Assembly: GCF_037076565.1 (NCBI RefSeq)
Contig: NZ_AP029028.1
Coordinates: forward strand, 3,720,001-3,784,000
From: Herbaspirillum sp. DW155
GTDB taxonomy: Bacteria; Pseudomonadota; Gammaproteobacteria; Burkholderiales; Burkholderiaceae_D
DNA length: 64,000 nt
Direction: 5' to 3'
The notes beneath the pieces were generated by a model, which saw only the letters and a program-made list of their open reading frames with translations, had not been told where the DNA came from and searched no databases. Position 1 is the first letter of the stretch. The number at the start of each line of letters is the position of its first letter. The translations under genes were made by a program, and so were the position numbers. This document shows positions 15,888-19,396 of the stretch, in pieces.

Positions 15888-17186
15888 ATGACTCCATCCC
15901 TGCAAGCCTACCGCGCCAGCCTGCTGTATTTCACCAACGATCCGGCCTTCGACGAACACGCCACCCAATGGCACAGCGATGGCCTGCTGCTGGTGCAAGA
16001 CGGCAAGATACAGGCGGCCGGCGACCATGCCCGACTTGCAGCCAGCCTGCCGCCCGGCACCGTCGTCGAAGACCTGCGCGGCAAGATCCTCTGCCCCGGC
16101 TTCATCGATACCCACGTCCACTATCCGCAGACCGACATCATCGGCTCGCCCGCGCCGGGTCTCCTGCCCTGGCTGGACAATTACACCTTCCCCGCCGAGC
16201 GCCGCTTCCAGCAGCCGGAACACGCGGCACAAGTGGCCGACTTCTTCCTGACCGAACTGCTGCGCAACGGCACCACCAGCGCGGCCGTCTATTGCACGGT
16301 GCATCCGCAGTCGGTGGATGCCTTCTTTGCCGCCAGCCATGCCCGCAACCTGCGCATGGTGGCCGGCAAGTGCCTGATGGACCGCAATGCACCGGATTTC
16401 CTGTGTGATACCGCCGAATCGGGCGTGCGCGAGAGCGAGGAACTGATCGCCCGCTGGCACAACAAGGGGCGCCAGCATTACGCCATCACCGTGCGTTTCG
16501 CACCGACCTCCACGCCTGAACAGATGAAGCTGGCCGGTGAGCTGGCGGCACAGTATCCGGACGCCTACATCCAGACCCACGTGGCCGAAAACACCGATGA
16601 AGTGCAATGGGTCAAGGAACTCTATCCCGATGCGCGCAGCTACCTCGACGTGTATGACGGCTATGGCCTCATGCGCCAGCGCGCGCTGTATGCCCACTGT
16701 ATCTGGCTGGACGACCAGGACCGCGCCCGCATGGCGGCCACGCAATCGGCAGCGACCCTGTGCCCGACCTCCAACCTGTTCCTGGGCAGCGGCCTGTTCG
16801 ATTTCGCCCGTGCCGATGCGGCGCGCGTGCCCTTGTCCCTGGCCACTGACGTGGGCGGCGGCACCAGCTTCTCGATGCTGCAGACCATGAACGAGCTCTA
16901 CAAGGTGGCGCGCATGGGCGGCACCTATCTGCCGGCGCAGCGCATGTTCTACCTGGCCACGCTGGGCGGCGCGCGCGCCTTGCAGCTGGAAGGCCGCATT
17001 GGCAGCTTCACGCCCGGCTGCGAGGCCGACTTCATCGTCCTCGATCCGCAGGCCACGCCCTTGCTGGCACGCCGCAGCGCCACCACCGGTAGCCTGGAGG
17101 AACAATTGTTCGCCTTGGCCATCCTCGGCGATGACCGGGCCATCGCCGCGACCTATTCAGCGGGGGTGCGGGTACACCAGCGCTGA
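15888..17186 (+). CDS. guaD: Guanine deaminase
   Basis: This 432-residue zinc amidohydrolase converts guanine to xanthine, the substrate of the upstream xanthine dehydrogenase. Motifs are in order: GFIDTHVHYPQTD (about 65-78), the TSAAVYCTVHPQS segment, THVAEN with metal-ligand His (about 230), HCIWLDD, CPTSNLFLGSG and the catalytic Asp in ATDVGGGTSFSML. ATG 15888 follows a CCGAGAAAA ribosome binding site. The in-frame codon 51 bases upstream is not supported. The gene is 169 bp after xdhC on the same strand and closes the purine cluster with its own terminator. Confidence 0.96.
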   Translation: MTPSLQAYRASLLYFTNDPAFDEHATQWHSDGLLLVQDGKIQAAGDHARLAASLPPGTVVEDLRGKILCPGFIDTHVHYPQTDIIGSPAPGLLPWLDNYTFPAERRFQQPEHAAQVADFFLTELLRNGTTSAAVYCTVHPQSVDAFFAASHARNLRMVAGKCLMDRNAPDFLCDTAESGVRESEELIARWHNKGRQHYAITVRFAPTSTPEQMKLAGELAAQYPDAYIQTHVAENTDEVQWVKELYPDARSYLDVYDGYGLMRQRALYAHCIWLDDQDRARMAATQSAATLCPTSNLFLGSGLFDFARADAARVPLSLATDVGGGTSFSMLQTMNELYKVARMGGTYLPAQRMFYLATLGGARALQLEGRIGSFTPGCEADFIVLDPQATPLLARRSATTGSLEEQLFALAILGDDRAIAATYSAGVRVHQR

Positions 17187-17216
17187 AGAACCTTTCATAT
17201 CGGCTCCCTAGGATGG

Positions 17217-17254
17217 AAAGCCGGGCCCGCCATTGGGGTGAGCCTGGCTTTTTT
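17217..17254 (+). terminator. Intrinsic terminator after guaD
   Basis: AAAGCCGGGC (17217-17226) pairs with GCCTGGCTTT (17242-17251), with one G-T, followed by a T6 run. It closes the purine operon and insulates the toxin-antitoxin genes. Confidence 0.8.
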
Positions 17255-17349
17255 GTGGCCGTCATTCTGTGAGCGTTTATCCAATCTTTTCGTCACTGCC
17301 GGGCAGCCGCTTGAGCGAACATCGCGTGTCGATGTATCCCTCAAGCAAC

Positions 17350-17388
17350 ATCAATTGATATTTTATGTCGACGAATTTATCAATTGAT
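17350..17388. promoter_or_regulatory. Twin palindromic operators over the toxin-antitoxin promoter
   Basis: The perfect palindrome ATCAATTGAT occurs twice, at 17350-17359 and 17379-17388, 29 bp apart centre to centre (almost three helical turns). The first overlaps a -35-like TTGATA (17355-17360). The second overlaps the -10-like TATCAA (17378-17383) placed 17 bases further on. This is the layout expected for autorepression by an HTH antitoxin. The sequence differs from the AACCT...AGGTT operator of E. coli MqsA. Confidence 0.7.
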
Positions 17389-17408
17389 TTAATATCGGAG
17401 CCTCTGCC

Positions 17409-17804
17409 ATGTCAGCGACCAGATTGCAGGTGCAGCACTTCCTGAACCAGCTCGCCGCCTTGCACCCCGGCGACATCCTCCTGTCGCGCCAGCGCAAAAC
17501 CCTGGATTTCATGGCAGAGATCGATTACGAGATGATCGATGTGGTACGTGAGTTGAGACAGCTCCGGATCGAGGACTACAGCTACGGGCCGAACCAGAAC
17601 GACTGGGGAACAGGCTGGGTCTGGCACTTCGGCAAGACGGTGGTGCAGTGCGTGAACAAGACGGAGCTGGCCCATCGCGTGTACATCAAGCTCTGTCTTG
17701 CCGTCACGCGCGAGGGACGCCGGAGCACGTGCATGTCCTTCCACCGGCCCGAACAAGCGATGAGATTTCCTTACCAGAAGCCCCCTGTGCAATGGAGTGT
17801 GTGA
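17409..17804 (+). CDS. MqsR-like toxin of a type II toxin-antitoxin module
   Basis: This is a 131-residue basic protein. Its C-terminal half has the layout of MqsR/RelE-fold mRNA interferases: an E-x-D-[FY] helix end (RIEDYSYGPNQNDWG), then strands VYIKLCLAV and STCMSFHRP that resemble the YLKITVI and VSFKEK strands of MqsR. It is longer than E. coli MqsR (98 residues), with an extended N terminus and a C-terminal PYQKPPVQW tail. GGAG lies 11 bases before the ATG. The stop overlaps the next start (TGATG), indicating translational coupling to the antitoxin. The family call rests on weak local similarity plus the diagnostic partner. Confidence 0.68.
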   Translation: MSATRLQVQHFLNQLAALHPGDILLSRQRKTLDFMAEIDYEMIDVVRELRQLRIEDYSYGPNQNDWGTGWVWHFGKTVVQCVNKTELAHRVYIKLCLAVTREGRRSTCMSFHRPEQAMRFPYQKPPVQWSV

Positions 17805-18787
17805 TGCCGGTCAAACCTTTTGAAATCTGTCCGAACTGTGCCGGCGAAGGCACGGTGCAACTCGTCAGCACCACGGAAACCCGTACCGTGAACAAGGAGG
17901 ACTTCGAAGTCCCGGTGGACTATTTCGCCTGCCAGCGCTGCGGCGAAAGCTTCCAGACCCTGGACATGGAAGACAGCCTGGTGAGGGCGCGCGAACTGTA
18001 TCGCACCCGGCACGGCATGGTCAGGCCGGAGCAGCTGACCGCCTGGCGCAAATCGCTCGGGCTGTCGCAAGCCGAACTGGCGGCCGTGCTGGGCTGGGGC
18101 GTAGCCACGGTGAGCCGCTATGAAAACGGCAAGCTGCAATCGGACGCCCACGACAAGTCCATGCGCATGGCCATGCGCTCTGCCGACACCCTGATCGAAC
18201 TGGTCCGCAGTGCCCGGGGGCTGCCCGCCCAGGTGCGCACCCGGCTGATGGCCGAACTGGAAAAAAGGGCCGGCTCGGCGGCCCTGGAGAAGGCCTTCAC
18301 CAGCAGCGCACGTAGCGCGCCGGGCGAAACCATCCGGCTGGAGAAGCTGGAACAACTGGTGCTGCTGCTGGGTGAAGGCGAAGGAGTCTTCGTCACCAAA
18401 CTCAACAAGCTGCTGTTCTACAGCGACTTCAAGCACTATCAGCAGCATGGCCGCAGTCTCTCGGGCCTGGCTTATGAGCGCCTGCCCTACGGGCCGGTCC
18501 CCTCGGCTTTCCGGCTGCTGTTTTGCTTGCTGGAGCAGCGCGGCGTGATCGAGCAGGTGGAAGTGCAGGTGGGCAGCGCCGAAGGTACGCAGGTGCGGCC
18601 CTTGCGGGCTGCGGATCGCAACGTCTTCGACGAGGAAGAACTGGCGCTCCTGCTCGCCATCAAGAAGCGCTTTGCCGAGATGGGTGCCAACGAGATATCA
18701 GAGGCCTCCCACCGCGAGCAGGCCTGGATCCAGACGCCCATGGCTGCCCTGATCGACTACCGCCATGCGGCGGCATTGAGCTTCTGA
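17804..18787 (+). CDS. MqsA-type antitoxin fused to a Panacea/SocA-like domain
   Basis: This is a 327-residue antitoxin and regulator with three modules. Residues 1-50 form an MqsA/YgiT zinc finger with Cys9, Cys12, Cys43 and Cys46. Residues about 70-130 form an HTH with the MqsA-like recognition stretch LSQAELAAVLGWGVATVSRY. Residues about 180-327 resemble the SocA/DUF4065 Panacea domain (VFVTKLNKLLFYSDF, AYERLPYGPVPSAF). E. coli MqsA has only the first two modules. The ATG at 17804 overlaps the toxin stop and has TGGAG upstream. Panacea is known as an antitoxin domain able to neutralise unrelated toxins. Here it may bind the toxin while the HTH represses the twin-palindrome promoter. Confidence 0.85.
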   Translation: MPVKPFEICPNCAGEGTVQLVSTTETRTVNKEDFEVPVDYFACQRCGESFQTLDMEDSLVRARELYRTRHGMVRPEQLTAWRKSLGLSQAELAAVLGWGVATVSRYENGKLQSDAHDKSMRMAMRSADTLIELVRSARGLPAQVRTRLMAELEKRAGSAALEKAFTSSARSAPGETIRLEKLEQLVLLLGEGEGVFVTKLNKLLFYSDFKHYQQHGRSLSGLAYERLPYGPVPSAFRLLFCLLEQRGVIEQVEVQVGSAEGTQVRPLRAADRNVFDEEELALLLAIKKRFAEMGANEISEASHREQAWIQTPMAALIDYRHAAALSF

Positions 18788-18793
18788 AGCGGC

Positions 18794-19396
18794 TCAGCGC
18801 GGCTGATACAGACAGATGAACGCATCCACCGCCCGTTGCGCCGAGGCCTTGAGCTTGGCCGCAGGGATATCGGTAACCACGTCGAGCATGCGCATTTCCA
18901 TCCATTCCGCTTCCATCAGCGCGCGCAACTGCATGCTCGCGATCCAGGGGTCGTCCGGCTGCAACTGGCCGGCCTTCATCTTGACCTCGATGAACTCGGC
19001 AATGCGCGTCCAGCCCCGCTTGGGGCCTCGCTCATAGAGCATCGGCCCCAGTTCGGACCTGCCCGCGTAATACATCGCCAGCCGCTTGACGGCGACAATC
19101 TCCGGCCGGAACACCACGGCAAGATAATGCTCGGCCAGACGCAATAAACCGCTGCGCAGTTCGTCTTCATTGCGCAAGGACATGAACATTTCTTCGAACT
19201 GGCACCCCACCTGCTTGATCATCACCTCCACGAAGATCTCTTCCTTGGAGCTGAAATAGTTGTACAGCGTGGCCTTGGAACCGCCGATACGGGCCGAGAT
19301 TTCGGCCATCGAGGCGCCCTCGAAACCGATTTCCTTGAATACCTCGGCCGCGATGTCGATCATCTGCTGGCGCCGTTCCTCACTCTTCTTGCGCAT
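18794..19396 (-). CDS. TetR-family repressor of the divergent efflux operon
   Basis: This is a 200-residue regulator. The N-terminal HTH (residues about 10-55) is typical TetR: MIDIAAEVFKEIGFEGASMA, then the recognition helix SKATLYNYFSSKEEIF. The C-terminal ligand domain is variable. It is divergent from the three-gene efflux operon, and a palindromic operator sits between them, so local repression relieved by a pump substrate is the natural inference. Its stop lies 6 bp from the stop of the convergent antitoxin gene. Confidence 0.94.
   Translation of the reverse strand: MRKKSEERRQQMIDIAAEVFKEIGFEGASMAEISARIGGSKATLYNYFSSKEEIFVEVMIKQVGCQFEEMFMSLRNEDELRSGLLRLAEHYLAVVFRPEIVAVKRLAMYYAGRSELGPMLYERGPKRGWTRIAEFIEVKMKAGQLQPDDPWIASMQLRALMEAEWMEMRMLDVVTDIPAAKLKASAQRAVDAFICLYQPR

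Follow-up and report, generated by a model that had tools for sequence, protein, structure and literature searches.

A predicted MqsR-fold toxin paired with a zinc domain-HTH-Panacea antitoxin in Herbaspirillum

The DNA analyzed here (the window) is a stretch of 64,000 nucleotides from Herbaspirillum sp. DW155 (contig NZ_AP029028.1, positions 3,720,001 to 3,784,000). Within it, two overlapping genes, for a 131-residue toxin and a 327-residue antitoxin, PanA, likely form one toxin-antitoxin operon. Both open reading frames (ORFs) are present as the first-pass annotation of this DNA described them, with base 17804 common to the two genes (TGATG) and hence a one-base overlap. The combination of MqsR with an antitoxin made of a zinc-binding domain (ZBD), a helix-turn-helix (HTH) and Panacea is of a kind already in print, to which the Herbaspirillum locus adds a new member. 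Its features, in window coordinates, are the following.

17350..17359, no strand assigned: perfect palindrome ATCAATTGAT, site 1, predicted operator, 59 bases 5' of the toxin start
17379..17388, no strand assigned: perfect palindrome ATCAATTGAT, site 2, predicted operator, 30 bases 5' of the toxin start and 29 from site 1
17397..17400, plus strand: Shine-Dalgarno-like GGAG for the toxin (from sequence)
17409..17804, plus strand: toxin gene, 131 residues, ATG start (ORF call and sequence)
17804..18787, plus strand: antitoxin gene panA, 327 residues, ATG start (ORF call, profile matches and structure model)
17819..17971, plus strand: MqsA-type ZBD, residues ~6-56, with Cys9/12/43/46 (profile match, sequence and model)
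18017..18181, plus strand: XRE-type HTH, residues ~72-126
18401..18727, plus strand: Panacea domain (SocA-like, PF13274), residues 200-308 (Pfam)

The antitoxin had been read as an MqsA-HTH-Panacea fusion, and profile matches place all three domains. The MqsA family model TIGR03830 (NCBIfam) matches residues 9-132 (E 2.5e-24, 85.5 bits against a cut-off of 61.8), Pfam MqsA_antitoxin matches residues 40-115 (E 3e-11, 44 bits against 30), and Pfam HTH_3 matches with E 3.9e-9, likewise above its curated cut-off. The kinship of the C terminus with DUF4065/SocA, on which that reading hung, was found as well: SocA_Panacea (PF13274) covers residues 200-308 with E 9.1e-18 and 65.7 bits, the cut-off being 25.7. 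Cys9/12/43/46, VFVTKLNKLLFYSDF and YGPVPSAF are all confirmed in the sequence. With four zinc cysteines, an XRE-type HTH and scores above the cut-offs of both TIGR03830 and PF13274, PanA can be classed with the MqsA antitoxins and with the Panacea antitoxins alike. Its structure model (predicted local distance difference test, pLDDT, 90.6) has E. coli MqsA (3gn5) as the top Foldseek match to the whole model (E 4.8e-5), and a short edge strand is predicted in the ZBD at residues 49-50.

Both genes look genuine and under purifying selection, as judged from ratios of nonsynonymous to synonymous change. The gene pairs compared were drawn from few loci and are not independent. For PanA, pN/pS is 0.18-0.33 over 10 pairs from 5 loci; by part it is 0.07-0.24 in the ZBD, 0.15-0.30 in Panacea, 0.13-0.67 in the linker and 0.03-0.16 in the HTH, apart from one HTH value of 1.3 that rests on very few changes. 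For the toxin, dN/dS is 0.10-0.26 over 6 pairs from 4 loci, with partial saturation at silent sites, where dS reaches 2.1.

With 131 residues the toxin exceeds in length all 15 classical MqsR proteins compared (98-117 residues), as had been claimed, and the view of the locus as a toxin-antitoxin-like pair with a divergent toxin is supported. The further suggestion of a new partner is not supported: the structure model of the toxin matches the MqsR fold, and some of the 825 proteins found in its family carry the annotators' name 'MqsR family toxin'. The toxin has the GP, WxFG, VYIK and SFHxxE motifs of a PanA-linked MqsR branch, alongside relatives named MqsR. This branch would correspond to node MqsR-D2 of PMC10440598.

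Active-site residues were compared in an alignment of the window toxin with the best 120 of its 825 relatives (121 sequences), the counterparts of E. coli MqsR Lys56 and Lys96 being placed by sequence anchors and an hhalign alignment, not by superposed coordinates. Tyr92 (the equivalent of the catalytic Tyr81), Lys94 and His112 (at the Lys96 position) are each present in 121/121, and Glu115 in 118/121. The Lys56 position holds Lys in all 15 classical MqsR proteins compared. Among the relatives outside the close clade, 73 of 113 have either Lys or Arg there. Within that clade (the window toxin and P0001-P0007, n=8) it is by alignment Tyr in 8/8, Tyr59 in the window toxin; P0032, 45% identical and outside the clade, likewise has Tyr there. 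Classical MqsR proteins cleave mRNA independently of the ribosome, at sites that contain GC. E. coli MqsR cuts mRNA using Tyr81 and Lys56 and requires both (PMC9636575), and of the Ala mutants, those at Lys56, Gln68, Tyr81 and Lys96 gave the best growth, placing them among the least toxic (PMC2791442). By alignment the window toxin is without one of these essential residues, so its way of cleaving RNA probably differs somewhat from that of E. coli MqsR.

The association of this toxin with Panacea is recurrent. The toxin was found in 4 of 195 genomes of the family, with a Panacea gene adjoining in 4/4, and in plasmid records that match the toxin family at E <= 1e-5 a Panacea antitoxin is the immediate neighbor, again in 4/4 (two of the four inspected in detail). 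In relatives as in the window, the toxin comes first and lies directly beside the ZBD-HTH-Panacea gene; toxin-first order is also that of E. coli mqsRA. The PanA proteins of loci L010 and L059 score above the cut-off of the MqsA model and that of L011 under it. Locus L059 is a viral contig with the pair, whose PanA passes the Panacea cut-off and, narrowly, that of MqsA (30.5 against 30); its toxin has no Pfam match and was recognized by motif.

The ATCAATTGAT palindromes are predicted to be an operator bound by PanA. A pair of them separated by 17-21 bases is found just once in the genome, a single contig of 5.47 Mb, and the reversed-pattern control gave 0. Relative to the toxin start, the pair lies at -59/-30 in Herbaspirillum sp. 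GW103 and at -58/-29 in a locus from a metagenome-assembled genome (MAG). Site 2 is perfect in GW103, in Herbaspirillum frisingense GSF30 and in the MAG locus, and site 1 of GSF30 has one mismatch. Locus L007 has one perfect copy at -53 from a GTG start, equivalent to -59 from an ATG two codons later. The palindrome of E. coli MqsA differs from this predicted operator sequence. Passages of the PanA and MqsR literature, in which no search was aimed at the palindrome, do not mention ATCAATTGAT. The feature drawn by the first-pass annotation starts at 17350, the first base of site 1, and the annotation makes no mention of a palindrome.

The history of the site was traced in 12 Herbaspirillum genomes through the interval between two flanking genes, which we take to encode a guanine-deaminase-like protein and a TetR-type regulator. 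The pair is intact in three of them (the window's own, G000, together with G026 and G059), as it is in the MAG locus (L003), and none of the 12 has the toxin without PanA. In G101 (L035), the toxin has been deleted almost cleanly between an intact, perfect palindrome (site 2) and the start of PanA, which is kept at full length as an orphan; compared with GSF30, its HTH shows a few amino-acid changes on very few silent ones. A zinc-domain-only ORF that keeps the four cysteines stands at the site in G082 (L040, 2186-2476, minus strand), where no HTH, Panacea or palindromes were found. In G116, G129 and G152 the flanking genes lie 252, 78 and 149 bases apart, respectively, and in G174 the contig ends; in G163, G142 and G185 the upstream flanking gene was not found by the pattern used. 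In G116 (L041), a segment of ~150 bases, bounded by what by eye are long inverted repeats, takes the place of the pair and looks like a small mobile repeat.

Published systems resemble the pair to different degrees. Like MqsRA of E. coli (PDB 3hi2, 3gn5; PMC2791442, PMC9636575), it combines the toxin fold and Tyr81 with an antitoxin ZBD and HTH; unlike it, the window antitoxin adds Panacea, and Lys56 and Lys96 are by alignment replaced in the toxin. Closer in layout is the MqsR(D2):PanA pair of Bacillus fungorum, likewise an MqsR-type RNase toxin with a ZBD-HTH-Panacea antitoxin, in which the predicted catalytic Tyr was tested. There, the isolated ZBD and ZBD-HTH neutralize MqsR-D2, whereas Panacea alone or HTH-Panacea fails to do so, and Panacea was proposed as a sensor (PMC10440598). 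The window pair, likened to it by description and not by sequence, differs in its proteobacterial host and in the Tyr of the close clade at the Lys56 position. A third comparison is with Herbaspirillum frisingense GSF30, whose PanA-associated MqsR is toxic in E. coli (PMC8832971). In the GSF30 assembly (G059; locus L005 within NZ_AEEC02000068.1), the one Panacea match lies beside a toxin 70% identical to that of the window, at the same site and in the same layout apart from the mismatch in one palindrome. Since this sole Panacea gene adjoins the 70%-identical toxin and the two classical MqsR genes of GSF30 have MqsA-like neighbors without Panacea, we infer that the published toxin is a direct orthologue of the window toxin. 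Its toxicity thus speaks only indirectly to that of the window toxin itself.

Given the above, we consider it quite probable, taking the explanation as a whole, that the locus is a toxin-antitoxin operon of the following design. The toxin, from its predicted MqsR fold, would be an RNase that cuts mRNA. PanA likely holds it through the zinc domain; in E. coli MqsA, papers on these relatives state, the zinc domain blocks RNA binding. Repression of the operon is likely the work of the HTH, bound to the twin palindromes, and Panacea is probably a sensor and not the neutralizing part, as hypothesized in PMC10440598. The direct basis for this design is the gene order and overlap, the PanA profiles and the resemblance of the toxin model to MqsR, together with the conservation of the palindromes and the recurrent association of the toxin family with Panacea antitoxins.

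Several results weigh against it. The window toxin has no match to PF15723 (E <= 1), NCBIfam or PADLOC, a family search of its genome likewise left PF15723 unmatched, and sequence searches of the PDB do not reach MqsR. In profile-profile comparison (hhalign), the broad toxin family meets classical MqsR with a modest probability of 67.9, and the close clade alone gives a negative result (4.1). Neither Lys56 nor Lys96 of MqsR is conserved in the toxin (Tyr59 and His112 by alignment). Two weaker plasmid matches to the toxin (E 0.1 and 0.4) have no Panacea match, and no sigma-70-type promoter match was found within 17150-18850. Moreover, E. coli was not rescued from the GSF30 toxin by the cognate PanA (PMC8832971), so neutralization is unproven for the Herbaspirillum clade.

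That failure also leaves the usual ZBD mechanism unestablished for the clade and gives some room to the earlier proposal that neutralization shifted from the zinc finger to Panacea, with the MqsA zinc domain a relic. Panacea alone does neutralize other toxins (PMC10440598), and in an alignment of 21 PanA relatives it has 24 of 114 columns at least 90% identical, against 8 of 51 in the ZBD. We nevertheless regard such a shift as unlikely and the proposal as unsupported: the four zinc cysteines are intact in PanA and kept across the clade, the ORF left in G082 encodes a ZBD but neither HTH nor Panacea, and in B. fungorum it is the ZBD alone that neutralizes. The pN/pS of the ZBD lies under that of Panacea in 8 of the 10 pairs from the 5 loci, though above it in the other 2. 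Alternatively, the pair may no longer be an active toxin-antitoxin system, the toxin having lost MqsR chemistry and PanA serving as a plain autoregulator. The Tyr and His at the Lys56 and Lys96 positions would fit such decay, as would the deletion of the toxin or absence of the locus in several Herbaspirillum genomes. It is made very unlikely by the purifying selection on the toxin, by the invariance of Tyr92, Lys94 and His112, and by the toxicity in E. coli of the presumed GSF30 orthologue (PMC8832971).

A partner absent from E. coli, for instance a protease to which PanA hands the toxin in the manner of SocA, would explain why GSF30 PanA failed to rescue there. Panacea is the SocA domain (PF13274), and PMC8832971 describes SocA as an antitoxin that promotes proteolysis. 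However, PanA scores 12.8 bits with the SocA equivalog model NF047745 (NCBIfam), far under its cut-off of 190, the failed rescue may be a problem of expression or folding, and for the B. fungorum relative the ZBD is enough in E. coli (PMC10440598), so that dependence on such a partner seems improbable. A more tentative and somewhat doubtful idea is that the PanA-linked branch rebuilt the MqsR active site and that the altered Herbaspirillum toxin is no longer held by PanA alone. The catalytic Tyr would have been kept and Lys56 become dispensable, with the invariant His and the near-invariant Glu three residues on taking over as in classical microbial RNases. A toxin no longer held by PanA alone would likewise explain the published rescue failure.

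With this analysis the idea of a new toxin partner falls away. The locus can also be linked to two published experiments whose outcomes appear to conflict: the zinc domain suffices in B. fungorum (PMC10440598), and the Herbaspirillum PanA gave no rescue (PMC8832971). The Herbaspirillum clade is therefore well suited to studying the contribution of Panacea to an MqsA antitoxin. The probable active-site change would, in addition, allow one to test directly how much MqsR chemistry can vary in a protein that stays toxic.

The surroundings of distant relatives bear on the role of the pair. In L010 (Fibrella plasmid CP155474.1), MqsR-PanA lies directly beside annotated synthase and phospholipase genes of a cyclic oligonucleotide-based antiphage signaling system (CBASS); an N-6 DNA methylase adjoins the pair in L011, and in L059 the adjoining ORF reads by eye as a DNA methylase. 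No defense-type gene was found within 3.2 kb in L007. Because three of the four distant relatives with inspected surroundings thus adjoin CBASS or DNA-methylase-type genes, the pair may act in phage defense.

Panacea also occurs outside these pairs. In the Herbaspirillum genome G185, a 371-residue protein (L036:796-1911) fuses a uracil-DNA glycosylase (PF03167, E 2.7e-25) to Panacea (PF13274, E 2.8e-8), an enzyme-Panacea fusion and not an antitoxin layout. The genome of the window itself encodes a second, stand-alone Panacea protein of 188 residues (G000:C1:4799341-4799646; L008:1372-1938; E 5.6e-21), next to a phage-type integrase gene and two ORFs without a Pfam match, one of which overlaps it; it may belong to a further PanA pair carried by a mobile element.
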